From: Candidatus Alcyoniella australis
GTDB taxonomy: Bacteria > Lernaellota > Lernaellaia > JAVCCG01 > Alcyoniellaceae
Assembly (NCBI GenBank): GCA_030765605.1
Contig: JAVCCG010000079.1
Location: 1-21,974, forward strand
DNA length: 21,974 nt
Direction: 5' to 3'
Shown here: positions 3,139 to 21,745 of the stretch, piece after piece
Layout of the letters: the number at the start of each line of letters is the position of its first letter
Position numbering within the stretch: position 1 is the first letter of the stretch
Made by a program: the position numbers and the translations under genes
The notes under the pieces: model-generated
What the model saw: only the letters and a program-made list of their open reading frames with translations
Told to the model about the DNA's origin: nothing
Databases searched by the model: none

Positions 3139-3154
3139 AGCATTTTGTGTGCCA
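3139..3154 (-). promoter_or_regulatory. Sigma-54 (-24/-12) promoter
   Basis: The minus strand reads TGGCACACAAAATGCT. This matches the consensus TGGCAC-N5-TTGCW at every position except the first T of TTGC, and the GG and GC pairs have the required spacing. It lies just before the NifX-like gene and downstream of a gene for a sigma-54 activator. Counting 12 bases from the GC element puts transcription start at about 3128, one base before the ATG chosen for that gene. Confidence 0.85.
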
Positions 3155-3252
3155 GATGTGCAAGCACACGACAGAAGTAATAATTACGCTTTGATTACTT
3201 AGTGTTATGCGACCTAGGGGCAGGTTGGCAGTCAGTTACCACAGCAGATAGA

Positions 3253-3299
3253 GTCGCACTAATGCAATTATAGGAGCGCATAGGGTCGCGTCAATGCAA
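3253..3299 (-). promoter_or_regulatory. Candidate enhancer (UAS) repeats for the sigma-54 activator
   Basis: Two 15-bp direct repeats occur at 3285-3299 and 3253-3267. On the minus strand they read TTGCATTGACGCGAC and TTGCATTAGTGCGAC, with 12 of 15 identical and a spacing of 32 bp, about three helical turns. A partial inverted copy (TGCGACCTA) starts at 3208 on the plus strand. They lie roughly 100-150 bp upstream of the -24 box, where AAA+ activators normally bind. The assignment to the neighbouring regulator is inferred. Confidence 0.55.
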
Positions 3300-3301
3300 C
3301 C

Positions 3302-4678
3302 CTACCTTTCCCTTTTTAGCCTGGACCGGCCATCAATTTTCGGAACGTCTATTTCGAAAGCCTTAAGTTTTCTGAAAAGCGTACTTTTATGCATGCCAAG
3401 TTCGCGGGCGGTCGCCTGGCGGTTGTAATTGTTGCGCTTTAGTGCATCCAGTATCGCCTGAGCTTCCACTGATCTCAAAGCGACGTCAATTGTGCCGCGT
3501 GTGGTCGGGCGGGGAATCGGGCCTATCAGGCTCTCCGGCAGGCAATGCAGTTCGATCTGTCCCTCAGGGCAAATCACAAACGCATGCTCGATGATGTTCT
3601 CCAATTCCCGAATATTGCCAGGGTAATTGTGCGACATGAGCAAAGCAAAGGTCTCCCGGCTGATACCCGTGATATTTTTTCCGCGTAAGAGGTTGAGCCG
3701 ATTGATAAAGCGTTCAACAAGCAGCGTGATATCTTCCTTGCGGTCGCGCAAGGGCGGAAGCTCGAGGCGCACCACGTTTATGCGGTAAAAAAGGTCCTGC
3801 CGAAAAGTCCCGCTTTTCACCATTTTTGAGAGATCTCTATTTGCGGCGGTAATGACGCGCACATCCGCCTTGACCTCATGCGTAGCCCCAAGCGGCTGAA
3901 AGGTCCGCTCCTGCAATACTCGCAGCAGCCGCACCTGGAAGGCGGCGCTGACATCCCCGATTTCATCCAAGAAAATGCTTCCACCTTCAGCACGAGAAAA
4001 GTGCCCTGGTTTGTCTTTGGTCGCGTTGGTGAAAGCCCCGGCTTTATATCCAAAAAGCTCCGATTCCAATAAGGTTTCCGGCAGGGCGCCGCAGTTGATC
4101 GCGACAAACGGCTTTTCCCGACGAGAACTCAACTCGTGAATGGCGCGGGCCAGAAGCTCCTTTCCTGTCCCTGTTTCTCCCTGAATCAATACCGTGCTGT
4201 CGCTTTCCGCCACCTGGGGCAGAATGCTGAAAATTTTATGCATAGATGAACTGCGGCTAACCATGTCGCCGACTTGAAAACGACCATCCAATTCCTTTCG
4301 CAATTCTTCCACTATGCTCATATCGCGGAATGTTTCAACGCCGCCCAACACCTTGCCGGTTTCGTCCTTGAGCAAGGAGGTGCATACCACGACCGGTATC
4401 CGCCTTTGCTTGCTGTTGACGATGTGTGTGGACGTGTCGACAAAATCCTTGCCCAGCTTCAACGTGCGGCGAAGGGCGCAGTCTTTTTCGCACATGTTGG
4501 AACGAAACACCTCCCAGCAGTGCTTGTCGATGGCCTCTGCTCGAAGAATTCCCGTGATCTCCTCGGCAGCGCGGTTGAACGAAGTGATGCGCCAGTTGTG
4601 GTCCACGGTGAACACTCCGTTGGAAATGCTCTCCAAAATGATTTCCGTTACGTGGTGGTTTAGGCTGCCGGATTTCAT
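3302..4678 (-). CDS. PAS-AAA+-Fis sigma-54-dependent transcriptional activator
   Basis: This is a 458-residue bacterial enhancer-binding protein. A PAS sensor covers about 10-125 and holds three cysteines (54, 63, 67) in one loop. The AAA+ core has Walker A GETGTGKE (167-174), Walker B GGSIFLDE (232-239), FRQDLFYRINV (292-302) and NYPGNIRELEN (351-361). The Fis-type helix-turn-helix covers about 404-445. The sigma-54 contact loop reads GAFTNA (214-219) instead of GAFTGA. There is no receiver domain, so control is probably by direct ligand or redox sensing in the PAS domain. It lies upstream of a sigma-54 promoter in an ORP-type cluster, matching the Desulfovibrio arrangement in which a cognate regulator drives the orp genes. 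An AGGGTGG ribosome site precedes the ATG. Confidence 0.93.
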   Translation of the reverse strand: MKSGSLNHHVTEIILESISNGVFTVDHNWRITSFNRAAEEITGILRAEAIDKHCWEVFRSNMCEKDCALRRTLKLGKDFVDTSTHIVNSKQRRIPVVVCTSLLKDETGKVLGGVETFRDMSIVEELRKELDGRFQVGDMVSRSSSMHKIFSILPQVAESDSTVLIQGETGTGKELLARAIHELSSRREKPFVAINCGALPETLLESELFGYKAGAFTNATKDKPGHFSRAEGGSIFLDEIGDVSAAFQVRLLRVLQERTFQPLGATHEVKADVRVITAANRDLSKMVKSGTFRQDLFYRINVVRLELPPLRDRKEDITLLVERFINRLNLLRGKNITGISRETFALLMSHNYPGNIRELENIIEHAFVICPEGQIELHCLPESLIGPIPRPTTRGTIDVALRSVEAQAILDALKRNNYNRQATARELGMHKSTLFRKLKAFEIDVPKIDGRSRLKRER

Positions 4679-4831
4679 TTCTTGTCCACCCTATCCAGGT
4701 CAATGCTTTAAAATCCCTGATGAAAGATGATACACCATTGTGCCTTATCCCCGTAAATTATTGCTAATAGTCAGTGATCTTAATTCCTTAGCACCTATAT
4801 CGGATAGCGGTGAAGATGAATGCCGGTCGAT

Positions 4832-4948
4832 AGGAGGTGGTCTGCCCCCCGATTTCTGGACTGCTCAGACTCTCACTTTGCCGGTATGATCCGGCGGTGA
4901 GCAAAGGAACTGGGAAATCGGCCGGTGCGGAGACCGTGTGCACCTCCT
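4832..4948. repeat. Nested long inverted repeat (possible structured RNA or mobile-element end)
   Basis: The paired arms nest as follows. AGGAGGTG (4832-4839) pairs with CACCTCCT (4941-4948). GGTCT (4839-4843) faces AGACC (4931-4935). CCGATTTC (4849-4856) pairs with GAAATCGG (4914-4921). CTCAC (4872-4876) pairs with GTGAG (4897-4901). GCCGG (4880-4884) pairs with CCGGC (4891-4895) around a TATGAT loop. No reading frame spans it. It ends 3 nt from the stop codon of the transposase remnant. No sequence family was recognised. Confidence 0.65.
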
Positions 4949-4950
4949 GT

Positions 4951-5217
4951 TTATAAAGGTAGGTCTATCGTCGGCTTGTACAGACTGGCGTATACATCCG
5001 GTGATGTGAGCGTTCCAGAAGTAGCCTTATGCAAGTACTCCTCGCCAAGAAGCCGATAGCCAAATATTCCTAAATGCTGACGCAGGGCGACGTTCGCCAG
5101 GACCAGGCCATTTTGTGAGCGGAACCAAGAAACCAGGAAACAGAGCAGCAAACGAACCATTTTCAGCGGATTTTGAGCCTTCATGTTGACAAGGTAGCCC
5201 GATTCAGCCATGCTCAT
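4951..5217 (-). pseudogene. Truncated integrase-type (DDE) transposase, N-terminal fragment
   Basis: The 88-residue frame contains KMVRLLLCFLVSWFRSQNG followed by LVLANVALRQ. This resembles the N-terminus of the rve-type IS transposases that read RSxxxLxLENLALRQQLAVL. Homology fades after ALRQHLGIF and the remaining ~45 residues look like junk, so the DDE catalytic domain is gone. The original start was probably the ATG at 5184, because the sequence from there (VNMKA) also occurs in a second, more decayed copy at 5344. A matching IS end lies upstream at 5243-5262. Family assignment is from memory of this motif. Confidence 0.6.
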
Positions 5218-8335: not shown

Positions 8336-9817
8336 TTGAGAATACACCCTGATGCCGCGATCTGGACGCTCGTCGTGGCGTTGCTGCTTTGCTGCGCCTG
8401 TGCCGCGGACAGCGACGCGGACGATGATGACGACGATGCAGCCGGGGACGACGATGCTGTGGATGACGACGATTTTGGCGATGACGACGACGCGCCCAAT
8501 CCATACCAGGGGATGCAACCCGACGGCCTGATGATCGTCGAGATTCTGGGCATCGCCAGCCACATGTCCACCGGCCCGCAATACAGCTGGCCGCGTGAGT
8601 TCGAGATCGAGCAATCGGTGGCCGCGGGCGTGCACACCTCGCGCCGCGGGTTCTATTGGAACCACATCGAGCCCCAGGACGACCAGTGGCAGTTCGCGGG
8701 CTACGACGTGATGATCGACCTGTTGGTCCAGGCCGGGCTGACTCCGATGGCGATGCTCACGCGCGGCGTGAGCTGGGCCATGCCCAACGGCAGCCCCAGC
8801 GACATCGACCCTGCGGTCTTCGCGGACTTCACCGGCACCGTGGCCCAGCGCTACGCCGATCAGATCGACCTCTACGAGATCTGGAACGAGCCCAACATGG
8901 GGCGCTTCTGGTCGCCCCAGGCTGATCCCGAGCATTTCGGGCTGCTGCTCAAGGCCGCCTATGCCGGCGTGCATGAGCAGGACCCCACGGCCCAGGTATT
9001 GTTCGGCGGCCTTAGCCCGCTTGACGACAACCTGTTCGACCCGCGCGGCATCTGGAACTTCGTCGCGCGCGTGGGCGAGGCGCATCCGGACCTCTGCCAG
9101 CACATCGACGGTCTGGCGATCCATCCCTACACTTTCCTGCAACAGCCCGGGCCGGAGTACTCGCTGGACCTGGGTTTCTATCGCTACCCCAACCTGCGCG
9201 ACAGCATCGGCCAGGCGCGCGGCCTGCTCGAGCAGCTGGGCTGCGGCGAGATCCCGATCCACCTGACGGAGATGGGCTGGCCGAGCCTGCTGATCGGCCA
9301 GGAGCGTCAGGCCGCGTATTTTCAGCGGGGCGTGCTGCTTGCGGCCTCGATCAATGTGCAGAGCTTCTGCTGGTACACGTTCTTTGATGAGACGCCCGAT
9401 TCAACGATTCCAACCGAGGACTACTTCGGCCTCTACCACTTGCCCGACGAGGACGAGCTGACCGACCCGCCGCCCAAGGAGGCTTATCACACGCTGGTCG
9501 GCCTCAACCAGGTGTTGGGGCAATCGCGCTACGCCGGCGACCTGGGCGCGGTCCTGGGGTGGGATGAGGCAAACTTCGCGCTGGTCTTTGTCGACGACGC
9601 CGACGCCTGGACCGTGGCCCTCTGGCACTTCAGCGAAAAGTTCAACGAGCAGGCGCAGGCCGCCGTGCCATTGCACCCCGCGGCCGTGGGCCAATGGACA
9701 CTGTTCGACGAACACGGAGCCGAGCTCGAGAGCGGAGATGCGACGGACGCGGAGCTCGAGTTGACGATCTCGGGCGAGGTGCGCTTCCTGCGCTTCTGGG
9801 TCCAGCCGGAATCGTGA
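8336..9817 (+). CDS. Asp-rich-linker lipoprotein, clan GH-A glycoside hydrolase (GH39/GH5-like)
   Basis: The 493-residue protein uses a TTG start at 8336; GGAAG lies 9 nt upstream and no in-frame ATG exists before the catalytic domain. A signal segment ends in LLLCCACAAD, with Cys 22 the likely lipid site. It is followed by an Asp/Ala linker (25-55) with runs of four to six Asp. The TIM-barrel domain runs from about 65 to 400. EIWNEPN puts the acid/base at Glu 185, and HLTEMGWPS puts the nucleophile at Glu 312; both are clan GH-A signatures. A small beta domain likely forms the C-terminus (about 400-493). Substrate is unknown, perhaps xylan- or arabinan-like polysaccharide if GH39-like. It is likely exported and surface anchored. 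The neighbours give no pathway context, and it converges on the operon to its right. Confidence 0.8.
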   Translation: MRIHPDAAIWTLVVALLLCCACAADSDADDDDDDAAGDDDAVDDDDFGDDDDAPNPYQGMQPDGLMIVEILGIASHMSTGPQYSWPREFEIEQSVAAGVHTSRRGFYWNHIEPQDDQWQFAGYDVMIDLLVQAGLTPMAMLTRGVSWAMPNGSPSDIDPAVFADFTGTVAQRYADQIDLYEIWNEPNMGRFWSPQADPEHFGLLLKAAYAGVHEQDPTAQVLFGGLSPLDDNLFDPRGIWNFVARVGEAHPDLCQHIDGLAIHPYTFLQQPGPEYSLDLGFYRYPNLRDSIGQARGLLEQLGCGEIPIHLTEMGWPSLLIGQERQAAYFQRGVLLAASINVQSFCWYTFFDETPDSTIPTEDYFGLYHLPDEDELTDPPPKEAYHTLVGLNQVLGQSRYAGDLGAVLGWDEANFALVFVDDADAWTVALWHFSEKFNEQAQAAVPLHPAAVGQWTLFDEHGAELESGDATDAELELTISGEVRFLRFWVQPES

Positions 9818-9854: not shown

Positions 9855-11021
9855 TTATGATCCGGACCGCTGGTCGAAGCGCCGCGCAAAGAGAATGCTG
9901 GCCATGGTGACCCTCAACATCTGGACCGTGCCGCCTGCCACGCGCCAAGCCAGCGCGTCGCGGTGCATGCGCTCCACCGGAAACTCGCGGCTGTAGCCGT
10001 ATCCGCCGAAAATCAACATCGCCTCGTTGGTCACCTCGGCCACCATCTCGTTGGCAAAACACTTGCCCATGGCCGATTCGTACATCGAGGGGAAGCCGCG
10101 CCCGGCTCCCAGTGCCGCGCGGTAGACCAGCAGACGCGCTGCGTCGAGCTTGGTGGCCATGTCCACGATCTTGAACTGCACGTCCTGAAACTCGCAGATC
10201 GGGCGGCCGAAGGCCTGGCGCTCCACAGCGTAGCGCTTGGCCTCATCCACCGCGGCCCCGGCCACGCCCAGGCACATCGCCGAGTTGCCGCAGCGTTCCA
10301 GGTCGAAGGTGGTCATCAGGTTGCGGAACTCGCCGATCTTGATCACCACCGCTTCGCTCGGCACGAACACGTCCTCGAAGATCAGGTCGCACGAGGGCAT
10401 GCCGCGCAGGCCCATGAATTGTTCCTGCCTGCCGAAGCTGAACCCGGGCGCGCCCTTGGGCACCAGCACCGCGCCGATCCCCTTGTACCCCGGCGTGTCG
10501 CCAAAGCGGCAGTAGACCAGGTAGTGGCTGGCCACTCCCGCGCCGGTGATGAAGGTCTTGCGGCCGTTGAGCAAATAGCCGCCGTCGTGTTCCACCAGTT
10601 TGGTGCTCAGGCTCGTCAGGTCGGAGCCGGCCTCGGGCTCGGTCATGCAGACCGACACGCTCAGCTCACCGCGACACACGCCGGGCAGCACTTCCTGTTT
10701 GTGTTCCGTGGTGCCGAAAGAATCGATCACGCGCACCGGCCCGACGTTGGATTCGAACACCGGCGCCGCGATCATCGGCGAGAAACGCGCCAGGGTTTCG
10801 ATCGCCAGCACCGCGTCGATTCCCGGCCGCCCGCCGCCGCCGTACTCAGGCGAGACAGTCATGCCCAGCAGCCCCATCTCGCCAAAGGTCTTCATCAGCG
10901 CGTGCGGGAACTCGCCGCTCTCGTCGACTTCGGCGGCCAGCTTGCGGAAGTTCTCGCGCTCGCCCATGCGCTGCAAGGTATCAACGAGCATTTTCTGTTC
11001 GTCGCTAAATTCGAAATTCAT
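9855..11021 (-). CDS. Acyl-CoA dehydrogenase (isovaleryl-CoA-type active site)
   Basis: This is a 388-residue flavoprotein of normal family length. It contains the FAD/substrate segment VCMTEPEAGSDLTSLST (124-140), LNGRKTFITGAG, RQAFGRPICEFQDVQ and IFGGYGYSREFPVERMHRD. The usual catalytic Glu of the YEGT motif is absent: that site reads AGGT (362-365). Glu 242 in FDLER sits where isovaleryl- and long-chain-acyl-CoA dehydrogenases carry their base, so the enzyme is probably active with that geometry. AAGGAA precedes the ATG, and only 27 nt separate it from the MmgE/PrpD gene. As the last gene of the operon it would introduce an alpha,beta double bond in the CoA thioester made by the CoA-transferase. 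The substrate is unknown. Confidence 0.93.
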   Translation of the reverse strand: MNFEFSDEQKMLVDTLQRMGERENFRKLAAEVDESGEFPHALMKTFGEMGLLGMTVSPEYGGGGRPGIDAVLAIETLARFSPMIAAPVFESNVGPVRVIDSFGTTEHKQEVLPGVCRGELSVSVCMTEPEAGSDLTSLSTKLVEHDGGYLLNGRKTFITGAGVASHYLVYCRFGDTPGYKGIGAVLVPKGAPGFSFGRQEQFMGLRGMPSCDLIFEDVFVPSEAVVIKIGEFRNLMTTFDLERCGNSAMCLGVAGAAVDEAKRYAVERQAFGRPICEFQDVQFKIVDMATKLDAARLLVYRAALGAGRGFPSMYESAMGKCFANEMVAEVTNEAMLIFGGYGYSREFPVERMHRDALAWRVAGGTVQMLRVTMASILFARRFDQRSGS

Positions 11022-11048
11022 TTACTGTTCCTTATTGGGTCGGGTTGA

Positions 11049-12416
11049 TCAGGCAAGCGCGGTCAGCTGCCGCACGTCGGCCAGTTGGTCAAGCCCCATC
11101 GTTAGTGCGCAGATTCGATCGAGCGTTGCCGGGTCTTGGCTGCGGCCAAACGCGCGCAGCTTGGCCGCCAGGTCATCGGCGCTCAGCGGGTCGCGTGGAT
11201 CGCCCTTGGGAATATCGATCTGTTTGCTGCGCAGCTCACCGTCATCCATGGTGATCTGCACCCGGCTCGCCGTGTACTCGGGGTAGCGATCGTTGAGCTC
11301 CGGATCGATGCTCACGCGCACCTTGGCGGCCAGGCTTTGCAGCTGCGGGTCGCTGATCCGCTCCTCGCGCACCTGGGCCGGGCCCATGGCCCGGTCCAGC
11401 AGGCAGGCGGCAACTACATAGGGGATCGAGAATTGCGCGGAGACGAACGTGCTCGATGCGTCAACCGGCTTGCCCACGGCGATCATCGCGATGCCGTAGG
11501 TCAACGCTTCGATGGTTGTGATTCGTTCCACCGCGAACCCCGGCTGATCCGCCAGCTCCAGCGCGGCCTGGGCGCAGCCGTGCGTGTGACGGCAGGCGGT
11601 GAACGGTTTGAAATAGATGTCCATGATCGAGAACGACTCGCCCAGCCCCTCCGTGATGCGATCCATCTGCGGCTCGCTGTTAGTGGTGATCTTGGTGAAC
11701 CCGCCGCCCAGATGCGAGCCCTCGAGCACGTAGGGCGGGCCGCTGATTCCGGCCGCGGCCAACCCGGCGGCACTTAGGGCGACGCTGGCAGCCTGGCCGC
11801 CTTGTAGGATCTTGGCCGTGAATCCACCCATCAGGGTTTCGGCCATACTCAGCGGCAGCAGATATCCGGCAATGCCCAAGGCGTTGAGCAGCGTTGCGTT
11901 ATCCAGACCCATCAGCATCCCGGCAGCCGCGGTCGCGCCGAACGTCCCGCAGGTGCCGGTGGGTAAAAAACCGCCCAGGGTGTGGAATGGATGTATGGCG
12001 GCCGCGATCCGGCCCGCGACCTCGTACCCGGCCACGATCGCGGTGATCAGCTCCTTGCCCGAACAGCCGCGCTGCTCGGCCACGGCCAGTGCCGCGGGGA
12101 TCACGGCCACCCCCGGATGATTGCCGCCGAAGCGCAGCCCGTCCTGCGCCTCGATCGCCTCTGCCGCCACGCCGTTGAGCAACGCAGCTTGGTGCGCTCC
12201 GGTGCGCAATTTGCAACCCAGGGCCGTGGCCTGGGGCGGCCCGTCCAGGGAGCGCACATAGTCGGTCACGCTGCGCACGGCCTCGAGCTCGTGCGAGCCG
12301 TAGACGTTGGCCAAAAAATCGAGGAAGCACAGCCGAGTCTTTGCGACCACCGGCTGCGGCAATTGATCGAAGGTCAGATCGGTACAGAACTTTGCCAGCT
12401 TGCGCGCGTACTCCAT
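11049..12416 (-). CDS. MmgE/PrpD-family protein (2-methylcitrate dehydratase-like)
   Basis: This is a 455-residue protein. Family landmarks are the N-terminal helix pair ending in FLDFLANVYGS, AQDGLRFGGNHPGVAVIPAAL, a long Gly/Ala-rich helical stretch with GTFGATAAAGMLMGL, and FKPFTACRHTHGCAQAALEL. Members catalyse dehydration or hydration of (methyl)citrate, cis-aconitate decarboxylation, or other unassigned lyase reactions. The frame opens upstream at 12563, but that part lies in the CoA-transferase gene and is not family-like. The ATG at 12416, with GAGGG upstream and 8 nt after the previous stop, is the natural start. Next to an acyl-CoA dehydrogenase and a CoA-transferase, a hydratase or dehydratase step on a branched di- or tricarboxylate is plausible. 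PrpB/PrpC partners are absent, so it is not the methylcitrate cycle. Confidence 0.9.
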   Translation of the reverse strand: MEYARKLAKFCTDLTFDQLPQPVVAKTRLCFLDFLANVYGSHELEAVRSVTDYVRSLDGPPQATALGCKLRTGAHQAALLNGVAAEAIEAQDGLRFGGNHPGVAVIPAALAVAEQRGCSGKELITAIVAGYEVAGRIAAAIHPFHTLGGFLPTGTCGTFGATAAAGMLMGLDNATLLNALGIAGYLLPLSMAETLMGGFTAKILQGGQAASVALSAAGLAAAGISGPPYVLEGSHLGGGFTKITTNSEPQMDRITEGLGESFSIMDIYFKPFTACRHTHGCAQAALELADQPGFAVERITTIEALTYGIAMIAVGKPVDASSTFVSAQFSIPYVVAACLLDRAMGPAQVREERISDPQLQSLAAKVRVSIDPELNDRYPEYTASRVQITMDDGELRSKQIDIPKGDPRDPLSADDLAAKLRAFGRSQDPATLDRICALTMGLDQLADVRQLTALA

Positions 12417-12424
12417 GGTTGCCC

Positions 12425-13225
12425 TCACACGTATCCGCGGCTCTCGTAGACCGCGATCATCCCTTGAGGATCGAGCACCTCGCGCAGCACCCGCAGTTCC
12501 TCGGCGCTGGGCGGCGGTGTTTCGCACACGTCGTCGGCGATGCGCAAATCCCACGGCGTGCACTGCACGATCTCGTCGATGGTGTTCCCCGGGTGATAGC
12601 TGGCCAGATAGGCCTCGCCCGTTGATTTGTCAAAACGCATCAGCGCCTTGTTGGTGATCAAGGCGTGCGGCCCGGTGTCCGGCGGCAGCCCGGCCCGTTC
12701 GCGACCGTCCGGGCCGTCGATGTACCCCGGCGTGGTGATGAAGTCCACGCGCGCGGCCAGACGGCGCTTGTCGTGCAGCGCGATGATCAGCACCTTGCGG
12801 GCCAGCGAGCCGATCGGGTTGGCGCCGCCGCTTCCGGGCAGGCGGCTGCGGGGATTGTCGTAGGGGCCGATGCAGGTGGTGTTGATGTTGCCGAAACGGT
12901 CGACCTGGCTGCCGGCCAGAAACCCGACGTCGACCCAGCCGCCCTGGAGGAACATGCCCATCACCTCGATCAACCCGCCGATCATCGCCGCGCCGGGATT
13001 GAGGCACGGATCGCCCACCGAGAGCGCCGGGCGCTTGGGCGCGGCGTCGTAGACCCCGGACTCCTGCATCATCCGCGCGTTGGGCGCGTGGGTGTGACGC
13101 GCGATGTTGGCCGACATCGTGGGGAAGCCGGTGCCCACGATCACCACCTCGTGGTCCTCGATCTCGCGCGCGCCGCAGCAGGCGATCAGTTCCGGTTTGA
13201 TGTAGTCGCCCAAGTCAGTGCCCAT
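12425..13225 (-). CDS. Family I CoA-transferase, beta subunit (glutaconate CoA-transferase B-like)
   Basis: This 266-residue subunit has the CoA-transferase I fold. NARMMQESGVYDA presents Glu 55 at the place of the catalytic glutamate of glutaconate CoA-transferase B, which forms the glutamyl-CoA intermediate. The conserved GFLAGSQVDRFGNINTT and FITTPGYIDGPDGRERAG segments follow. Because the glutamate is kept, a true transferase is more likely than an IpdAB-type ring-opening hydrolase. GGGGTGA lies 3 nt before the ATG, and the gene starts 14 nt after the alpha-subunit stop, so the two are co-expressed. It would activate an acid produced by the operon as a CoA thioester using an unidentified donor such as acetyl- or succinyl-CoA. 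Confidence 0.9.
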   Translation of the reverse strand: MGTDLGDYIKPELIACCGAREIEDHEVVIVGTGFPTMSANIARHTHAPNARMMQESGVYDAAPKRPALSVGDPCLNPGAAMIGGLIEVMGMFLQGGWVDVGFLAGSQVDRFGNINTTCIGPYDNPRSRLPGSGGANPIGSLARKVLIIALHDKRRLAARVDFITTPGYIDGPDGRERAGLPPDTGPHALITNKALMRFDKSTGEAYLASYHPGNTIDEIVQCTPWDLRIADDVCETPPPSAEELRVLREVLDPQGMIAVYESRGYV

Positions 13226-13239
13226 CGTTCACCCCGAAT

Positions 13240-14175
13240 TTAATATGCGTAGCTCACCGGGTAGCTGTAATCGAACTCCGACTGCAACCCCTTGAAGGTC
13301 GAGTATCCGAACGTCTCGATGAAGTGCTGGACGTATTCCTCACGGTTCGTCACGCCGAAAACCCACTCGTCGAGAAAGGCCTGGAAGCCCTCGGTGGTCT
13401 CGGATGCGGACTTGTAGAGGTTGGCAAACGTCATGTCCACGTCGTAGAACCCCGGCGCATAACCCGGGTGCGCTCCGAACGGCTCCTGGACCACCGCGAC
13501 CACCTTGAAGTCCGGGACAATGGTGCGCGAGGGGTCCTTGCCGATCACCTCGCGGTCCACGATCCGCTCGCAGCTGACGATCACCTTGCGTGCGGCGTTG
13601 GCGCCCATCTGGCAGTCGCCGCCGATGCCCCAGATCTGGGCGTTGCCCTCGGCGTCGGACTGCTGCACGTGGATGATCGCCACGTCGGGATTGAGCGCCG
13701 GGACCAGCAGCGTGTTCTTGCCGTCGAAGGGCGATTGAATCAGCTTGTACTTGTCCTCGCCCATGAACGAGCGCACGTTGAGCAAATCCGAGCCGAGCAT
13801 GTCCTTACTGGGCACGAACGGCAGGCCCATGGCACCGGCCATCAGCATCAGCGGCAGCGAGAGGTTGGTGTACTCCTCGACCTCAATCGCGTGGGGGATC
13901 TGCTGCTCCATCGCGCGGCGATAGCAGCGCCCCAGGCCGAAAAATCCCAGCGAGAGAAACGTCGAGACGAAGCGTTTCACCGCGCCCGCGCCGATCAGCA
14001 TGTCGAAATCGTCGGCCGCGTTGCTGCGCACGATGGTCAGGCCGCTGCGGCGCTGGCGGATAATCTCGTGGATCGCGGCGAACGGCGTGCGGCAGATGTA
14101 CCCGCCGATAAACAGGAAGCTGTCGTCGGGCACGTGGTCGGCCACCGCCTCGCGCATGGTGCAAACTTTACTCAT
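13240..14175 (-). CDS. Family I CoA-transferase, alpha subunit (glutaconate CoA-transferase A/IpdA-like)
   Basis: This is a 311-residue protein. MREAVADHVPDDSFLFIGGYICRTPFAA is the Gly-rich oxyanion/CoA-binding start of family I alpha subunits. PALNPDVAIIHVQQSDAEGNAQIWG is the family's central signature. The open frame continues upstream to 14724 inside the glycyl radical gene, but the ATG at 14175 has an excellent GGAGGAGG site. It also overlaps the preceding stop by 4 nt (ATGA), a sign of translational coupling to the glycyl radical enzyme. It forms the heteromeric transferase with the next gene. The substrate acid is unknown; the coupling suggests it is the product of, or close to, the glycyl radical reaction. 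Confidence 0.9.
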   Translation of the reverse strand: MSKVCTMREAVADHVPDDSFLFIGGYICRTPFAAIHEIIRQRRSGLTIVRSNAADDFDMLIGAGAVKRFVSTFLSLGFFGLGRCYRRAMEQQIPHAIEVEEYTNLSLPLMLMAGAMGLPFVPSKDMLGSDLLNVRSFMGEDKYKLIQSPFDGKNTLLVPALNPDVAIIHVQQSDAEGNAQIWGIGGDCQMGANAARKVIVSCERIVDREVIGKDPSRTIVPDFKVVAVVQEPFGAHPGYAPGFYDVDMTFANLYKSASETTEGFQAFLDEWVFGVTNREEYVQHFIETFGYSTFKGLQSEFDYSYPVSYAY

Positions 14176-16568
14176 CGTCCTCCTCCGCCCGCCTCGTATT
14201 CGGTGCGGCTGATGATCTCGTCCTGGGCAATGTCGCTCAGTCCGGTGAACAGCGCCGAGTAGCCGCTGACGCGCACCACCAGGTCCGCGAAATTCCCGGG
14301 CCGCTGCTGCGCATCGCACAATGTCTGCGAATCGACCATGTTGAACTGCACCTGCACACCGCCGTCGGCAAAGTAGGTGCGCAACAGCGCGGCCAAGGTC
14401 TGCGGATCCAGCCGCGTCGGGTGAAAACGCAGGTTGAGGTTCACGCCGTTGGTCGCCCGATTCAGCGGCAGCTTGGTCACCGAGTTCATTACCGCGGTCG
14501 GCCCGTTGAGCGCGTTGCCGTTGGTGGGAGTGATGCCGTTGCCCAGCACGTCGCCGGCGTTGCGCCCATCGGCGCTGGCAGCGGCGAACGCGCCCATTGC
14601 GATGTGGAACCCTACCGAGAATACGCCGGGCCAGAATCGTCCGCCACGGAAGTGGGGCAGTGCGCCGGCCCGCTGACAGAAGTGCTCCAACACCCGAGCC
14701 GCCAGCGCGTCGACCTCGTCGCAATCGTTGCCGTACTTGGCAATCTTGTGCAGGAAGTAGCTGCGTTGCTCCTCGGCGTCCTCCCAGTCCTCGGCCAGCA
14801 GCTCGGCCAGCTTTGCCAGTGGCAGCGTGTGATCCTCGAACACGGCCTTGCGGATCGCGTACAGGCTGTCCGCGACGTTGGCGAAGCCGATCAACTGTAG
14901 GCCCGTGGAGTTGTAGACCGCGCCGCCGGAGGTGAGGTCGATCCCCTTTTCCAGCGGCCCCTCGATCATCGCCGAGGCAAACGGCGAGGGGACGAGCTGG
15001 GCGATGGTGCTGTCGAGCACCTCCATGCCCGTGGCCATCTGCCCCAGGAAGTGCGTCACCTGGCTATCGTAAGCGTTCCAGATATCCTCGAACGAGTCGA
15101 ACTGCGCCGGATCGCCGGTCTGCGGCCCTGAACGGTAGCCGAAGATGTGATCGATGCCGTCGGAAAGCGCCAGTTCCAGGCACTTGATGCCGCTAAACTG
15201 CACGGCGAATGTCGAGCCGAAGGTCTTGCCCTGGGCGCTGGGCTCGAGACAGCCCACCACGCCGTAGTCGCGTGCGTCCTCGAGAGTGTGCCCAGCGCGG
15301 GTCAGGGCATCGATGATCGCCGCGTCGTTAAACAGATGCAGGGCCACGCCGTCCTTGGCGTATTGCAGCGCCCGCAGCATCAGCTCCTGCGGCGCGTCCG
15401 GGCCGAGGCGCACACCGAAGTTGGGCTGCACCGTGCGCACGTCGGCATAGGCGTCCAGGCCGATGTAGCTCAGCTCGCAGGTGGCGTCAGCGCCGTCGCG
15501 GCCCAGGCCGCCCACGGTCACGTTCTGCGTGGTCTTGCCCTCGGTCCCCTCGCCGCCGGGAATGAAGGCCTCCTCGAGGATGTTCCAGATCTCGTTGGTC
15601 TTGATAAACAGGCACGCCAGCAGCTCGCGCGCCTGCTGCGGCTGGATGCGGCCGGCCTGCAGGTCGGCCTCGTAATAGGGGCGCAGCACCTGATCGATGC
15701 GGCCCAGCGAAATCGAGTTGCCGCCCGATTCGATCTGCGCGATGAGGTGGATGAAGTACACGCTTTGCAGCGCCTCGTGGAACGTGGACGCCGGATGTTC
15801 GGGCACGCGACGGCAGACCGCGGCGATCGTGCGCAGCTCGTCCGCGCGCAGCGGGTCGGCGCAGATCGCGGCCTGGCGCTCGGCCTCGTCCGCGTAGCGG
15901 TTGGCAAAGACTATGGCGGCCCCCAGAGAGCGGATCACCGCCCCGTAGAACAGCCCTTTTTCGCCCGAGCGCTCCTGCGGCACCAGCGCGTCCAGCCGTT
16001 GCTGCGTCTCGGCGATCACCCCGCGAAGCCCCAGGCCGAGCATCCGCGAATGGTTCATCGTGAAGTGGCCGATGCCGTAGGTGATCTCGAGGATCATCGT
16101 GAAGATGTACTTGTCTATGTCCGCGGCCACGTCAGCGGGCAGGCGCTGCTCAAGCAGCTCCTCCACCGTGCGTCCGCGCCAGAACGGCAGAATCTCCTCG
16201 CGCAGCTCGCGCTGCTCAAGATCGGTGATCCCGACCTTTTGCAGCACACGATCTTCGAACGAATCCAGGTCGGTCTCGATCCAGCGCGCCTTGTTCTCAG
16301 GAAAGAACGGCGCGCCCTTGAGCTTGGAGGTTCGGCAGCCGACGATCAGCTCGTCGTCGCGGATGATCACGCTGATGTTGGCCAGAATGTTTTCAAGCGC
16401 CAGGCTGATGCGCGTCAGCGCGTGCTCGTCCCAATGCTGGGACATCGCCTGGGTCAGATAGCGCGCGCGCTCCACGCAGGCCTCGCGCGGCGCGTTGATG
16501 ATCCGCTGGCGCAGGCGGCCGATGCGGCCGTCGCGCTGCTTGGTCAAGTCGATCGCCGGTTCGGTCAT
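14172..16568 (-). CDS. Glycyl radical enzyme (PFL-like), unassigned type with Cys-x-Glu active site
   Basis: The 798-residue protein has normal length for the family. Near the C-terminus VVRVSGYSALF carries the radical-bearing Gly 769. The active-site loop GVVGCLEPSAQGKTF gives thiyl Cys 440 and, two residues on, Glu 442. A Cys-x-Glu loop is found in eliminating or decarboxylating members (glycerol/diol dehydratase, choline lyase, hydroxyphenylacetate decarboxylase) and not in pyruvate formate-lyase, which has Cys-Cys. The substrate-side loop GHFTMNHSRML (168-177) differs from the GHxxPDYxxVL pattern I recall for the dehydratases, so the substrate is probably different. The ATG at 16568 (AAGGTGTGA upstream, 4 nt after the SDR stop) is preferred over the longer frame. 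No activating radical-SAM enzyme is in the window. Confidence 0.93.
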   Translation of the reverse strand: MTEPAIDLTKQRDGRIGRLRQRIINAPREACVERARYLTQAMSQHWDEHALTRISLALENILANISVIIRDDELIVGCRTSKLKGAPFFPENKARWIETDLDSFEDRVLQKVGITDLEQRELREEILPFWRGRTVEELLEQRLPADVAADIDKYIFTMILEITYGIGHFTMNHSRMLGLGLRGVIAETQQRLDALVPQERSGEKGLFYGAVIRSLGAAIVFANRYADEAERQAAICADPLRADELRTIAAVCRRVPEHPASTFHEALQSVYFIHLIAQIESGGNSISLGRIDQVLRPYYEADLQAGRIQPQQARELLACLFIKTNEIWNILEEAFIPGGEGTEGKTTQNVTVGGLGRDGADATCELSYIGLDAYADVRTVQPNFGVRLGPDAPQELMLRALQYAKDGVALHLFNDAAIIDALTRAGHTLEDARDYGVVGCLEPSAQGKTFGSTFAVQFSGIKCLELALSDGIDHIFGYRSGPQTGDPAQFDSFEDIWNAYDSQVTHFLGQMATGMEVLDSTIAQLVPSPFASAMIEGPLEKGIDLTSGGAVYNSTGLQLIGFANVADSLYAIRKAVFEDHTLPLAKLAELLAEDWEDAEEQRSYFLHKIAKYGNDCDEVDALAARVLEHFCQRAGALPHFRGGRFWPGVFSVGFHIAMGAFAAASADGRNAGDVLGNGITPTNGNALNGPTAVMNSVTKLPLNRATNGVNLNLRFHPTRLDPQTLAALLRTYFADGGVQVQFNMVDSQTLCDAQQRPGNFADLVVRVSGYSALFTGLSDIAQDEIISRTEYEAGGGGR

Positions 16569-16572
16569 GGTC

Positions 16573-17400
16573 TCACACCTTGATGTCCATCTGGTTGAGC
16601 AGGATCTTGTCACGTAGCGCCGCGGGCAACAGCCGGTTGATCTGCATGAAAAAGCGGCTCTTGAAATCGATCTGGTTATGCATGGCCATCTTGTCCGCGC
16701 GTATCACCTGGATGATCTTCTGCGCGGCCTGCAGCGGATTGGGCGCGGTCTTGATCAGCTCGTTGTCGCGATCGATGAAGCGCTTGGCGCGTGCGCGATA
16801 GGGCGAGCCCTCGGGCGGCAGCTTGTGGATTTTTGCCGCGAAATCCGTGGAGACCTGCGCCGGTTGCACCAACGCCACCTGAATGCCGTACGGCTCCACT
16901 TCGTAGCGCAACGAGAGCACCAGCCCCTCGACCGCGAACTTGCTGGCCGAGTAGATCGACTCGAACGGGAACGGGATCTGCCCGACCAGCGAGGACATGG
17001 CGATCAGTTTGCCCGCGCCGTGCTCGCGCATCGAGGGGACAAAGGCCTGGAAGATCGCCGCAGTGCCGATGACGTTGATCTCCATGCACTTGTTCGCGCG
17101 CTCCAGGTCGACCTCCTCGAACGGGCCGAAGAAGCCGATCCCCACGTTGGAGAGCACCACGTCGACGTGGCCGAACTTTTTGAGCACGCTGTCACGGAAA
17201 CGCAGAATGCCGGGACGATCGTCGATGCTCAGCGCCTCGAGCAGCGACTGGCCCTTGAGCGCGTCGAGCTCGCTACGCAGCGAGTCGATCCCCTTGGCGT
17301 CCACGTCAAAACCAGCCACCGCGTCCCCGTTGGCTGCCAGAAGTTTTGCTACTTCGCGACCGATTCCCTGGGCCAATCCCGTGATCACCACAACCTGCAT
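16573..17400 (-). CDS. Classical short-chain dehydrogenase/reductase
   Basis: This is a 275-residue Rossmann enzyme. The cofactor motif is TGLAQGIG (7-14), followed by LSNVGIG in place of NNAG, catalytic Ser in AMSSLVGQ, and YSASK for Tyr/Lys. FDVDA after beta strand 2 carries an Asp, which favours NAD(H). AAAGGGG precedes the ATG. The C-terminal ~50 residues (RADKMAMHNQIDFKSRFFMQINRLLPAAL) are amphipathic, as in membrane-associated SDRs acting on lipids. It lies directly upstream of the glycyl radical gene with 4 nt between them. The likely role is oxidation or reduction of a hydroxyl/keto intermediate of the same pathway. The substrate cannot be read from sequence. Confidence 0.9.
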   Translation of the reverse strand: MQVVVITGLAQGIGREVAKLLAANGDAVAGFDVDAKGIDSLRSELDALKGQSLLEALSIDDRPGILRFRDSVLKKFGHVDVVLSNVGIGFFGPFEEVDLERANKCMEINVIGTAAIFQAFVPSMREHGAGKLIAMSSLVGQIPFPFESIYSASKFAVEGLVLSLRYEVEPYGIQVALVQPAQVSTDFAAKIHKLPPEGSPYRARAKRFIDRDNELIKTAPNPLQAAQKIIQVIRADKMAMHNQIDFKSRFFMQINRLLPAALRDKILLNQMDIKV

Positions 17401-17420
17401 CTGCGACCCCTTTCTTTAAT

Positions 17421-17449
17421 GCTGACGAACCCTCATGAATAATCCTGGC
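17421..17449. repeat. Solo end of the MITE-like element
   Basis: CGAACCCTCATGAATAATCC (17426-17445) is the exact reverse complement of 19576-19595, the left end of the 270-bp element upstream of this operon. Similarity extends to 17421 with one mismatch. It fills most of the 48-nt gap between the SDR and epimerase genes, and its outer end abuts the epimerase stop codon. The rest of the element is missing here. Confidence 0.75.
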
Positions 17450-18426
17450 TAGTCGCTTTGCTGCGCGCCGATTTGGCGCATCGACTCGGCGAAATCCGGA
17501 TAGATCAGTTTATATCCAGTCGCCTTGAGGCGACTGTTGTCCAACACGTAATCGTCGTACAGATAACGCACCGCGTCCGGCTCCAGGTCCGGAATGCGGC
17601 CGCGTCGGCCCGCGATCAGCGCGTCGACCCGGGCCACGGCGCTGACCAGCGCCAGCGGCAAATGCAGTTGCGGAGGTTTGGATTCGAACGTCTTGGCGGC
17701 CAATGTCAGCGCCTGCTCGAGCGTCGGATGGCTGTCGTCGACTAGGTTGAACGCCCGGCCCACAGCCTGCTCCTGGTGCGACAAATGCTCGACAGCTCCG
17801 GCCACATCCTCGGCCCGGATGTTGGACAGCAGCTGCCCGCCTTTTCCGGGAATGGCGAAGATCGAGGTCGGACGCGAGAAGGCCTTGCCCGCGCCGTCGT
17901 TGCACCCCGGGCCGTAGACCGTGCACGGCCGGGTGATGATCGCGGGGAAACCCTGCTCGATCCGTTTCCAAACCACGTCCTCGCCGTCGCGCTTGCTGCG
18001 GCCGTAATCCTCCTGCGGTTGGCGCGGATCGTCCTCTTTAAACGGTCGACCGCAATACGGGCCGTACACGCTGCTCGAGCCCACATGCACATAGGCCCGC
18101 ACCCCCGCGTCCAGGGCGAGCTGCGTAATGCGCTCCACGCCGATCACGTTGGTGGGGCGCAGCTTGGCATAGGGCGTGGAGAAATTGCAGATTGCGCCCA
18201 GGTGAAACACGCGGTCCACGCCGCCCTCAAACAGCGGCGGCAGGGTCTCGGGCAAGGTCAGATCAGCGGCCACATACTCGACGCCCAAGCGCTCGAAAAA
18301 CGAGAGGTCGCGCCGCGGACGGGCCGTGGCTCGCACGCGCACGCCCTGGCGCGCCAGATGTTCCACCATGTGCCGACCCATGAAGCCGGCCGCCCCGGTC
18401 ACCAGCGTTATACCGTCGAATTGCAT
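17449..18426 (-). CDS. Extended SDR, NAD-dependent epimerase/dehydratase or 3-beta-HSD-like
   Basis: The protein has about 325 residues. LVTGAAGFMGRHMVEHL gives the TGxxGxxG NAD(P) motif, followed by YVAADLTLPE, FHLGAICNF, VHVGSSSVYG and the catalytic YGRSK. RPCTVYGPG and SNIRAEDVAGAVEHL complete the atypical/extended SDR pattern. Sugar epimerases and 3-beta-hydroxysteroid dehydrogenases share it. With an SCP2-like protein upstream, a hydroxylated lipid substrate is as likely as a sugar, which is inferred. I chose the ATG at 18426, 2 nt after the PadR stop; a TTG at 18432 overlapping that stop is possible. The 3' end abuts a MITE end. Confidence 0.88.
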   Translation of the reverse strand: MQFDGITLVTGAAGFMGRHMVEHLARQGVRVRATARPRRDLSFFERLGVEYVAADLTLPETLPPLFEGGVDRVFHLGAICNFSTPYAKLRPTNVIGVERITQLALDAGVRAYVHVGSSSVYGPYCGRPFKEDDPRQPQEDYGRSKRDGEDVVWKRIEQGFPAIITRPCTVYGPGCNDGAGKAFSRPTSIFAIPGKGGQLLSNIRAEDVAGAVEHLSHQEQAVGRAFNLVDDSHPTLEQALTLAAKTFESKPPQLHLPLALVSAVARVDALIAGRRGRIPDLEPDAVRYLYDDYVLDNSRLKATGYKLIYPDFAESMRQIGAQQSD

Positions 18427-18428
18427 GC

Positions 18429-19007
18429 TCAACCCGTTGCGCGGTCCGCTGCCCGCTGCTGTTCGGTTTTTTTAGATGAGTTCGCCGCATCCGATTCGCG
18501 CAGCTCCACGGCCGCGCGCCTAAGCCAGCCCAGCATGGTCTGATTGAGCTCCAGTCCCAGCTCGGCCACCAGGCGCGCGTAATCGCTGCCCCGCAGGCGC
18601 GTGGACAGATACTCCTCGCGCTCGCGCAACTCTTGCTCGTATTGGTCGATCTGCTCCTGCACGGCCTGGAGCGCGGCTTGCGAATCGCCCAGGCCAAAGA
18701 ACGGAAAACGGATCAGGAACGAATCGCGCAGCACCATCCGTCGCTCTGGAGGGCTGTTGAGCCAGGCGGCGAAAACCTCGCGCCCCTTGGGAGTGATCGA
18801 GTAAAGCTTGCGCGGCGGCGCGGCAGGTTGCGGCACCTGGGTCATGCTCACCAGCCGCTCTTTGTGCATCGCGGAAAGGGCCGGGTAGATCTGGCCGAAG
18901 TTGATCGTCCACATTGCGCCGAAGTCGCGCTCGATGATCTGTTTGATGCGGTAGCCGTGCAGGTCTTTGTTCTGCAGCAGCCCCAGGATCACGTACTTGA
19001 TCGACAT
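18429..19007 (-). CDS. PadR-family transcriptional repressor
   Basis: This 192-residue regulator has an N-terminal winged helix with the family pattern YVILGLLQNKDLHGYRIKQII, then INFGQIYPALSAMHKERLV and YSITPKGREVFAAWL. A C-terminal coiled coil (about 105-150, QAVQEQIDQYEQELREREEYL) serves for dimerisation. The tail is charged (SSKKTEQQRAADR). The start at 19007 is the first residue of the conserved domain; the longer frame is antisense-like to the SCP2 gene. PadR proteins usually repress adjacent genes, and their own, until a ligand, often a phenolic, binds. The 21-bp dyad at 19528-19548 is the obvious operator. It is the second gene of the operon, 11 nt after the SCP2-like gene. Confidence 0.92.
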   Translation of the reverse strand: MSIKYVILGLLQNKDLHGYRIKQIIERDFGAMWTINFGQIYPALSAMHKERLVSMTQVPQPAAPPRKLYSITPKGREVFAAWLNSPPERRMVLRDSFLIRFPFFGLGDSQAALQAVQEQIDQYEQELREREEYLSTRLRGSDYARLVAELGLELNQTMLGWLRRAAVELRESDAANSSKKTEQQRAADRATG

Positions 19008-19018
19008 CGCCAGTCCCG

Positions 19019-19456
19019 CTATTTGGTAAGGATCAGCTCGGTCAGCCCCATTTCCTGCAGCGCGATGGGGAACATGCGGAAGGCCGGTTTGACCACAGGC
19101 AGCAGCTTGAGCATCTTGATTATGTTCCCGCCCTGCTTGACCTTGCCCCTGGCCACTGCGGCGATGGGGTTCTCCATGCCGTGCCAGAAGCGGTGCGAGT
19201 GGTCGGCCGATTGCTTGGACCACACGTCCTCTTTAATCTGGCAGGGGCCCAGGTAGAACGTGCCGTAGTGGTCGGGCTGCGCAGGCGGGTTCTTCAGATC
19301 GATAGTGATCTCGCCGTCGGGATCAGTGTAGATGAACTTGATTACGATCCCGGCCTTGGCCATCTTCGGGCCGATCTTCTCGTCGGTCAAAATGCGCTTG
19401 AGGAAATAGCCGTAGATCTCGTAGAGCTGGTCCAGGTCTTTGTAATAAGTTCCCAT
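19019..19456 (-). CDS. SCP2 sterol-binding-domain-like protein
   Basis: The 145-residue protein has an SCP2-type layout. An early helix (LDQLYEIYGYFLKRIL) leads to IVIKFIYTDPDGEITIDLKNPP, a beta sheet. SADHSHRFWHGMENPIAAVARGKVKQGG corresponds to the conserved D-x-A-H-x-x-W segment with the aliphatic pocket helix, and KMLKLLPVVKPAF follows. Such domains bind sterols, acyl chains or acyl-CoA in a hydrophobic tunnel. The ATG at 19456 is preferred to that at 19471 because GGGGAGG lies between them, 6 nt before the chosen codon. It is the first gene after the promoter and suggests that the pathway substrate or intermediate is hydrophobic. Confidence 0.75.
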   Translation of the reverse strand: MGTYYKDLDQLYEIYGYFLKRILTDEKIGPKMAKAGIVIKFIYTDPDGEITIDLKNPPAQPDHYGTFYLGPCQIKEDVWSKQSADHSHRFWHGMENPIAAVARGKVKQGGNIIKMLKLLPVVKPAFRMFPIALQEMGLTELILTK

Positions 19457-19525: not shown

Positions 19526-19554
19526 ATACTATATTGAAAGTATATAGTGGTCAA
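19526..19554 (-). promoter_or_regulatory. Sigma-70-type promoter of the glycyl-radical operon
   Basis: On the minus strand TTGACC (19554-19549) and TAGTAT (19531-19526) are separated by exactly 17 bp, close to the ideal TTGACA-17-TATAAT. Transcription would start at about 19519, leaving a leader of roughly 63 nt. The leader contains a GC hairpin (GGCCGG/CCGGCC, 19479-19497) before the ribosome site of the SCP2-like gene. Confidence 0.8.
19528..19548. promoter_or_regulatory. Palindromic operator, probable PadR site
   Basis: ACTATAT-TGAAAGT-ATATAGT is a perfect 7+7 bp dyad with a 7-bp centre. It fills the spacer of the promoter from the -35 edge to inside the -10 box, so a bound dimer would block RNA polymerase. 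AT-rich dyads of this type suit PadR proteins, and the second gene of the operon encodes one. The match of protein to site is inferred. Confidence 0.75.
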
Positions 19555-19846: not shown

Positions 19847-21721
19847 TCAGGTCGAGGCGCGTTGATCCAGGGTTACGTTGTCAGCCTTGACGTTGGCGTG
19901 TTTGCGGTCGTTGTGATCGAGAATGCGCTTACGCACTCGAATCGAGCGAGGCGTGAACTCGACCAGTTCGTCGTCGTTGATGAACTCGATCGCCTCCTCG
20001 ATGCTCAGGACCTTGTGCGGCTTGACAAAGTTTTTTTCGTCAGCGCCTGCCGAGCGGACGTTGCTGAGTCTCTTGGCCTTGCCCGGGTTGATCACGAGGT
20101 CGTTGTCCCGCGTGTGCCAACCCACGATCTGCCCGGCGTAGACCTTGGTCCCCGAGCCCATGAAAAACACACCGCGGTCCTCGAGCTTCCACAGCGCGTA
20201 AGCCACGGTCGTACAATCCTCCAAGGCAATCATCGCGCCGTTCACACGATCGGCGATCTCACCGGCCCAGGGCCCGTATTCGTGGAAGACCGCGTTGAAC
20301 ACGCCGGTGCCGCGCGTCTCGGTGAGGAACCGCGAACGGTATCCGATCAATCCCCGCGTGGGGACCACGAATTCCACGCGCGTACGCCCTTCCCCCACGT
20401 CCCGTATATTGATGATCCGGCCGAAACGCTGGCTCAGCGATTCGATAATCGTGCCGACGTGCACGCTCTGGACATCGGCCGTGACGATCTCATAAGGTTC
20501 GAGCGTCTCGCCGGATTCGTCCGTCTTCGTCACGACCTTGGGGCGCGAGACCATGAATTCGTAGCCCTCGCGGCGCATGGTTTCGATCAAGACCGAGAGG
20601 TGCAGCTCGCCGCGTCCGATGACGTTGAAGGAGTCCGGCGAATCCGTCGTTTCCACGCGCATGGAGACGTTCGATTTCTTTTCCCGTTCCAGACGCTCGG
20701 CGATCTTGGCGCTGGTGACGAACTTGCCTTCCTTGCCGCAGGTGGGCGAGGTGTTGGTCATCATCGCAATTTTAACGGTCGGCGCGTCGATCTGGATCAT
20801 CGGCAGGACGCGCGGGTTGTCCACCGAGGTCAGCGTCTCCCCGACGCCCGGCGCTTCCATGCCGGTAATGGCCACGATGTCCCCGGCCACCGCCTGGTCC
20901 TGCGCCAGCCGGTGCAGCCCGCGGAATCCGAAAATCTGGTTGATGCGAAACTCGTCCCGGCTGCCGTCGTGGCGGATCATCAACGCGTGCTCGCCGGGCC
21001 GGAAAACGCCCGACTCCACACGGCCGATGGCCATGCTCCCCACGAACCCGTCATGGTCGAACGTCGCCACCTGCATCGCGGGCGCGGCCTGCGGATCGAT
21101 CATCGGGGCCGGCACGTGTTCGCAGATCTTTTTCAGCAGCGGGGTCAGATCGCCAGGCTCGTCATCGGGTGAGGCCTGCGTATAGCCCAGCTTCGCCGAG
21201 GCGAAGATCACCGGGAACTCGCACTGCTTTTCAGTGGCTCCCAGCGAGATGAACAGATCGAGTACCGCGTCCGCCGCGGCCTGGGGATCGCAGCCCGGCC
21301 GGTCGATCTTGTTGATTACCACGATCGGGTGCAGCCCGCGCGCCAAAGCTTTTTGGGTTACGAAACGCGTCTGCGGCATCGGGCCTTCGAAAGCATCGAC
21401 CAGCAGCAGCGCAGAGTCAACCATGTGCATCACGCGTTCGACCTCGCCGCCGAAATCCGCGTGCCCGGGGGTGTCCACCACGTTAATATGATATCCGTCG
21501 AATTCCAGCGACGTGCACTTGGAGAGGATCGTGATGCCGCGCTCCCGCTCGAGCTCCCCTGAATCCAGGGCCTGTTCGATCTCGTCCTCGCCGCGCTTAA
21601 AACTGCCCGACTGCCCCAGTAGCTTGTCCACCAGCGTGGTCTTGCCGTGATCAACGTGGGCGATGATTGCGATGTTCCTGATTTTCTCGGCTGTTCGCTC
21701 TGTAGCGGGCACATAGCCCAT
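19847..21721 (-). CDS. typA: TypA/BipA ribosome-associated translational GTPase
   Basis: This is a 624-residue GTPase. G1 is AHVDHGKT (21-28), followed by ERERGITI (G2), [15 protein letters not shown] (G3), NKIDRPG (G4) and FASAKLGY (G5). The EF-G-like domains then follow: APGVGETL, the TypA-specific [39 protein letters not shown] and [19 protein letters not shown]. The C-terminal [21 protein letters not shown] and the final [15 protein letters not shown] are diagnostic of TypA rather than LepA or EF-G. The frame opens at GTG 21745, but GAGGA lies between that codon and the ATG at 21721, which I take as the start. TypA binds the 70S ribosome and supports assembly and stress growth. It is a housekeeping gene outside the operon. 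Confidence 0.96.
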
Positions 21722-21745
21722 GGGAATTCCTCGCGTGCAGATCAC

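Follow-up and report, generated by a model that had tools for sequence, protein, structure and literature searches.

The described enzymes closest to the glycyl radical enzyme (GRE) considered here are the B12-independent glycerol and 1,2-propanediol dehydratases (1r8w, 5i2g, 9rco). This GRE is encoded in a nine-gene operon at positions 9855-19456 (minus strand) of a 21,974-nt stretch of Candidatus Alcyoniella australis (contig JAVCCG010000079.1 of GCA_030765605.1), which is called the window throughout and to which all positions refer. It shares with the dehydratases the fold, the Cys-x-Glu loop, the His at position 164 and the Ser at position 282 of glycerol dehydratase (GD), and the glycyl loop. 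In contrast to them, it has extra residues in the loop IPGGEGTEGKTTQN, belongs to a separate clade and lacks the GD His281/Tyr339/Asp447 contact set, while the window contains neither microcompartment genes nor an adjacent activase.

The other genes of the operon recall further systems. Glutaconate CoA-transferase (1poi) aligns near full length with both subunits of the operon's CoA-transferase, CtA and CtB, and has the same Glu-Ser-Gly motif, but its 2-hydroxyglutaryl-CoA dehydratase context is missing here. The SCP2-like domain of human peroxisomal MFE-2 (1ikt) shares the SCP2 fold and a lipid beta-oxidation context with the first operon product, which, unlike it, is a stand-alone bacterial protein with a sequence similarity under the Pfam cut-off. 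In the toluene and limonene pathways (bss/bbs, lss; PMC12583861), as in this operon, a GRE is followed by a CoA-transferase and an acyl-CoA dehydrogenase (ACAD). However, the operon GRE lies on another branch, the CoA-transferase is of family I and not III, there are no fumarate-adding accessory subunits, and SCP2, MmgE/PrpD and aldehyde oxidation are present only in the operon system. The limonene pathway was considered as the source of the cluster and rejected, its GRE being an X-succinate synthase in a different operon. In the open-access literature on GREs in connection with CoA-transferase, SCP2, PadR, MmgE, or ether or hopanoid lipids, we found no description of this cluster. The GRE subfamily and its pathway are well supported and, although within a known kind of enzyme, apparently undescribed.

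A separate subfamily of glycyl radical enzymes

The GRE matches both superfamily domains, the PFL-like barrel (PF02901) and the C-terminal glycyl radical domain with its RVxGY loop (PF01228), and Cys440, Glu442, His168, Ser285 and Gly769 are invariant in its 34 orthologues. It reached no named NCBIfam equivalog cut-off (HypD, CutC, HpfG/HpsG, PflD, IAD, HPAD, PFL), the best score being 535 of 1000 bits for sulfopropanediol dehydratase, and fell just under the cut-off of the broad PFL2-3 subfamily TIGR01774 (662 versus 678 bits). In a tree with HypD, YbiW, PflD-like, propanediol and glycerol dehydratase references (CutC, IslA, HPAD and X-succinate synthase were compared by score and fold only), its clade formed one side of a branch with 100% support. 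The separate cluster with constant neighbours that a preliminary description of this DNA had tied to a new pathway was thus recovered, monophyletic and under all NCBIfam subfamily cut-offs, and the GRE did not fall inside a characterised subfamily with the same neighbours. By fold as well as by sequence, it is closest to the glycerol and 1,2-propanediol dehydratases (AlphaFold2 model, TM 0.93, about 37% identity; glycerol dehydratase, 522 bits).

The CXE (Cys-x-Glu) motif on the Cys loop is the conserved feature of GRE eliminases (PMC8473560); here it is C440-L441-E442, with the Cys and the Glu in 34/34 orthologues. The hydroxyl that this Glu binds is the one that ends up as the aldehyde in diol dehydratases, CutC and IslA (PMC7077986). 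The motif, together with the role of its Glu in the known eliminases, argues for a reaction of the elimination class, and we consider it likely that the GRE performs such chemistry. The positions equivalent to GD His281, Tyr339 and Asp447, which we take to be the diol and substrate contacts of that enzyme, are Asn284, Thr347 and Phe454 in all 34 members. These invariant replacements suggest a different, probably less polar substrate, presumably a hydroxylated compound with one end less polar than glycerol.

Several other GREs were seen in the same genomes and relatives. A sister GRE (locus L089, 2514-4868; 52% identity) has the same signature residues (GGNSIS, EGKTTQN, STF) and other neighbours, including a gene that is sulfatase-like by sequence. 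The genome of the window (G000, L001-L008; 4.29 Mb) contains at least seven GRE loci (the window and contigs C35, C64, C109, C143, C94 and C78), and none of the six scored GREs outside the window reaches an NCBIfam cut-off. On contig C78 (L111, 2930-6265), a single 1112-aa frame begins with an activase-like radical SAM part (CALRCLWC) and continues as a complete GRE (GCVE, RVAGY), an apparent natural activase-GRE fusion. In-frame TGA codons in GRE matches of G002, G004 and contig C64 of G000 were considered as selenocysteine and rejected, since each was a natural stop overrun at the match end.

Conservation and regulation of the operon

The nine open reading frames all lie in one direction, with successive intergenic distances, from the SCP2-like gene to the ACAD gene, of 11, 2, 48, 4, -4 (overlap), 14, 8 and 27 nt. 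The tight, co-directional packing reported in the preliminary description is therefore borne out, with no gap above 48 nt, and Pfam backs all of the family assignments except SCP2.

With the GRE as the sole query, 61 loci were returned, mostly at 60-74% identity. Almost all of them are in metagenome-assembled genomes (MAGs) of Thermodesulfobacteriota/Deltaproteobacteria (Desulfobacterales, Syntrophales, Smithella), Spirochaetes, Chloroflexi (Dehalococcoidia, Ardenticatenales), SAR324, Zymogenaceae and Fibrobacteres; some of the contigs are short and possibly mis-binned, and others are long (a 2.2 Mb Dehalococcoidia chromosome; 216-248 kb in Desulfobacterota, Spirochaetes and SAR324). In at least 20 loci, which belong to MAGs of Desulfobacterota, Spirochaetes, Zymogenaceae and SAR324, the full set of nine genes runs in a single direction and in the order PadR-eSDR-SDR-GRE-CtA-CtB-MmgE-ACAD-SCP2 (SDR, short-chain dehydrogenase/reductase; eSDR, extended SDR), with SCP2 placed first in the window and in two relatives of the same class (L087, L088). 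As a GRE-only query still recovered the neighbours in a fixed order, their clustering is not due to chance, and the orthologues are not scattered in related genomes. The pairwise distances of each other operon gene tracked those of the GRE (Mantel r 0.65-0.78, 0/999 permutations as high), which indicates that the genes travelled together, with shared organismal descent contributing to the correlation. The GRE tree mixes phyla, the window sequence grouping with Dehalococcoidia and Spirochaetes with Smithella, and this suggests a horizontal spread of the operon unit. Its occurrence is sporadic (3/7 genomes in the phylum of the window and 7/147 in the class of L055).

The nine-gene unit of the preliminary description held in its fixed order in these loci and gave way in others, CtA/CtB/MmgE being absent together in several and PadR in others. 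In L061 and L083, the CtA/CtB/MmgE module is missing and an AMP-forming ligase and a different ACAD are present; L057 and L072 are reduced to eSDR-SDR-GRE-SCP2, and neither PadR nor SCP2 was seen in the Dehalococcoidia loci L025 and L065. Judged from the ligase variants and the reduced loci, the core of the operon is SDR, GRE and SCP2, usually with eSDR, and the downstream genes for acid activation and desaturation can be exchanged as a module. Two loci show signs of decay or disruption: L105 (G166, 4.96 Mb contig) is a relic, in which the GRE has two stops and a gap, the SDR is truncated, and PadR and eSDR are kept, and in L087 (14773-16137) a stop splits MmgE/PrpD into two frames, perhaps through an assembly error or as a pseudogene.

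Upstream of the first operon gene, a 17-bp AT-rich site with at most three mismatches from TATATACTTTATATATA was found in 29 of the 35 PadR-carrying loci; shuffles gave 0.9 on average, and other parts of these loci 3/2728 bins. The counts lean upward, since the upstream regions counted were also used to refine the consensus; it was the final form of this consensus against which the shuffles were scored. The site was present in none of the five examined loci without PadR. In the 4.29 Mb genome, TATATACTTTNNATATA has a single exact match, at 19530-19546 ahead of the operon, where the chance expectation for the window is 0.02 even allowing three mismatches, and the relic L105 retains a perfect site. 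The textbook PadR operator, ATGT-N8-ACAT, was rejected (0/35 upstream regions, shuffles about 1), the conserved site being the AT-rich one. Scans with the exact pattern gave no second site in the own genome and none in nine related genomes, whose sites differ from the pattern, and so revealed no pathway activase or aldehyde:ferredoxin oxidoreductase (AOR). Because the operator is tied to PadR-carrying loci, unique in the genome and kept in the relic, we regard PadR as a regulator dedicated to this locus, which would act at 19530-19546, presumably by binding there and repressing rather than activating. This fits the PadR control claimed at the outset, where no operator was mentioned, and the operon is very probably one regulated functional unit.

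Proposed pathway and alternatives

The SCP2-like protein scores 15.8 bits against Pfam SCP2 (cut-off 21.3), but its AlphaFold2 model (pLDDT 88.8) has SCP2 domains as its nearest solved folds (Z about 12.5-12.9, Foldseek E down to 3e-7), the human MFE-2 SCP2-like domain being among the best matches (Z about 12.5). The model thus supports the SCP2-like assignment made in the preliminary description, with lipid carriage as the predicted function. YxxxK and GxxGxxG are invariant in 38 orthologues of the extended SDR, and YxxxK in 43 orthologues of the classical SDR, whose nearest solved structures are those of human 17beta-HSD1. The best solved relatives of CtA and CtB are chains A (178 bits) and B (189 bits) of 1poi, respectively, and E55-S-G of CtB is invariant in 41/41 orthologues; by sequence, then, these are subunits of a family I (glutaconate-type) CoA-transferase and not, as had also been stated before, of the family III type of toluene degradation. 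The nearest solved relatives of the MmgE/PrpD protein, iminodisuccinate epimerase and cis-aconitate decarboxylase, reach only about 100 bits, and family membership is the sole support for a hydration by this protein. In the ACAD, Glu242 is invariant (35/35) and the medium-chain-type base position is Ala or Gly (35/35); its catalytic Glu apparently sits at what we take to be the isovaleryl/long-chain-type position. The best family scores of the ACAD, all under cut-off, are for 3-sulfinopropionyl-CoA desulfinase and then acryloyl-CoA reductase.

Neighbouring genes were counted in the 32 loci whose sequence covers the 3′ end and continues for 2.5 kb or more past it. An AOR lies downstream in 16 of them, and an AOR or an aldehyde dehydrogenase (ALDH) beside or inside the cluster in 19; the AORs are co-directional and downstream save in one case (upstream, other strand). 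For the AMP-forming ligase of L061 and L083, the top scores are those against acyl-CoA ligases of the long-chain fatty acid and steroid types. These neighbours and the ligase variants point to a route from a diol-like substrate to an aldehyde, an acid, an acyl-CoA and its desaturation, and suggest that an aldehyde-to-acid step, absent from the earlier reading, belongs to the pathway. L032, L036, L062, L086 and L108 have a GRE activase within or next to the cluster, the L036 and L086 proteins exceeding the TIGR02494 cut-off.

From the computed gene set, gene order, regulatory signature, catalytic residues and SCP2 fold, we infer a chemistry, a step order and a substrate class: on balance, we lean towards a catabolic operon under PadR control, by which strict anaerobes would break down a hydrophobic, probably lipid-derived alcohol or diol, with the following steps taken as a whole. 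The substrate would be carried by the SCP2-like protein, and its hydroxyl groups would presumably be adjusted by the two SDRs. The GRE would act as an eliminase, in which the Gly769 radical would generate a thiyl on Cys440, and this thiyl would abstract a hydrogen adjacent to a hydroxyl that Glu442 and His168 keep in place; with the loss of a neighbouring group, most probably water, an aldehyde or ketone would be formed. A tungsten-type AOR or an ALDH, whose gene adjoins the operon in many relatives and presumably lies at another site in this genome, would convert the aldehyde to a carboxylate, CtA/CtB would convert the acid to a CoA ester, and the ACAD would desaturate it. MmgE/PrpD would work on a carboxylate intermediate, and PadR, acting at the TATATACTTTNNATATA operator, would repress the operon. 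Tentative substrate candidates are long-chain diols, glycerol ethers, polyhydroxylated hopanoids and amino-diols such as sphinganine. That the GRE might be the first known oxygen-independent lyase of lipid C-O bonds, acting on glycerol ether lipids or on polyhydroxylated side chains (for example, bacteriohopanepolyols) with the loss of alkoxide or water, seems to us decidedly improbable.

Several points weigh against this pathway. Some arylacetate decarboxylase GREs have the CXE motif too, which makes it by itself no proof of elimination, and the GRE model is at its lowest confidence in the active-site loops (pLDDT below 50 at 332-346 and 767-771). CtA/CtB are closest to glutaconate CoA-transferase, which handles small, partly dicarboxylic acids and is a poor fit to a long lipid acid, and we know of no MmgE/PrpD enzyme that acts on lipid acids. 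Neither an AOR nor an activase adjoins the window operon; the own genome has three AORs and three activase matches away from it, the best AOR relative showing 46% identity (L094).

The common fold family and the presence of a decarboxylase among MmgE/PrpD-fold enzymes would be compatible with a GRE that cleaves a C-C bond in an aromatic or steroid-like pathway, acting as a lyase or decarboxylase in the manner of the enzymes that decarboxylate indoleacetate or hydroxyphenylacetate, with the CoA-transferase and the ACAD handling another fragment. We consider this unlikely, since the decarboxylase models gave 351 of 1100 and 260 of 1150 bits, under the 535 of the dehydratase-type sulfopropanediol model, fold and sequence are nearest to the diol dehydratases, and decarboxylation has no need of aldehyde-oxidising neighbours. 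Toluene-like logic, with the GRE adjoining a CoA-transferase and an ACAD, could instead imply that the GRE is of the alkyl- or benzylsuccinate synthase type and activates a hydrocarbon by fumarate addition, with CoA transfer and dehydrogenation as the next steps. This is highly improbable given the scores of benzylsuccinate (217 bits) and methylalkylsuccinate synthase (234 bits) against 522 for glycerol dehydratase, the 25% identity, and a CoA-transferase of family I with a catalytic Glu and not of family III; no X-succinate synthase small subunit was found among the nine conserved genes or the annotated recurrent neighbours.

The direction of the pathway could also be the reverse, the operon making or modifying a membrane lipid or another hydrophobic metabolite with the CoA-transferase, ACAD and SDRs running reductively. 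The SCP2, SDR and eSDR families (HpnA-like, 3beta-HSD-like) do occur in lipid biosynthesis, and acryloyl-CoA reductase is the second-best score of the ACAD. However, the patchy distribution in the phylum and in the class of L055, the dedicated regulator and the co-located MFS transporter, AOR and fatty-acid-type CoA ligase variants all look catabolic, which leaves a biosynthetic role with a small chance.

Genomic setting and significance

Features of the operon and its upstream region, in the order of transcription.
Feature	Position	Strand	Basis
Candidate PadR operator TATATACTTTCAATATA	19530..19546 (extended palindrome 19528-19548)	(-)	73 bp upstream of SCP2-like start
SCP2-like lipid carrier (putative), 145 aa	19019..19456	(-)	AlphaFold2 + Foldseek/VIA-align; Pfam SCP2 sub-threshold
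PadR-family transcriptional regulator, 192 aa	18429..19007	(-)	PF03551 69.4 bits, PF10400 30.9 bits
Extended SDR (eSDR; 3beta-HSD / epimerase type), 325 aa	17449..18426	(-)	PF01370 108.8 bits
Classical SDR, 275 aa	16573..17400	(-)	PF00106 152 bits; PDB search
GRE, 798 aa	14172..16568	(-)	PF02901 613 bits, PF01228 89 bits
CtA, CoA-transferase family I alpha subunit (glutaconate CoA-transferase type)	13240..14175	(-)	PF01144
CtB, CoA-transferase family I beta subunit	12425..13225	(-)	1poi chain B match; catalytic Glu E55
MmgE/PrpD-family protein, 455 aa	11049..12416	(-)	PF03972 198.7 bits, PF19305 132 bits
ACAD, 388 aa	9855..11021	(-)	PF00441/02770/02771

The operon is preceded by typA (19847-21745, same strand) at a distance of about 390 nt, and its 3′ end abuts a convergent gene (8336-9817). 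The product of the latter is secreted and glycosidase-like, with a very aspartate-rich start, and the fused GRE of L111 is followed by a comparable Asp-rich protein, also secreted. By inspection only, window positions 3-5000 hold an unrelated cluster, in which a tandem MinD/Mrp-like ATPase with ferredoxin motifs lies at 401-2212 and a sigma-54-type PAS regulator at 3302-4678, along with NifX-like small proteins.

Newly assigned GREs have tended to reveal new anaerobic metabolisms, as for choline, hydroxyproline, isethionate and indoleacetate. The GRE of this operon appears to define a coherent pathway that is common to poorly cultured sediment and subsurface lineages and has its own regulator and operator, so that one compound should account for many MAGs. 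Expression surveys and substrate screens can make direct use of the operator and the gene order. Should the substrate be a lipid, the pathway would fill a gap in the breakdown of recalcitrant membrane lipids by anoxic ecosystems, and if the GRE proved to be a lipid C-O lyase, the operon would be a missing route by which ether and hopanoid lipids are recycled in anoxic sediments.

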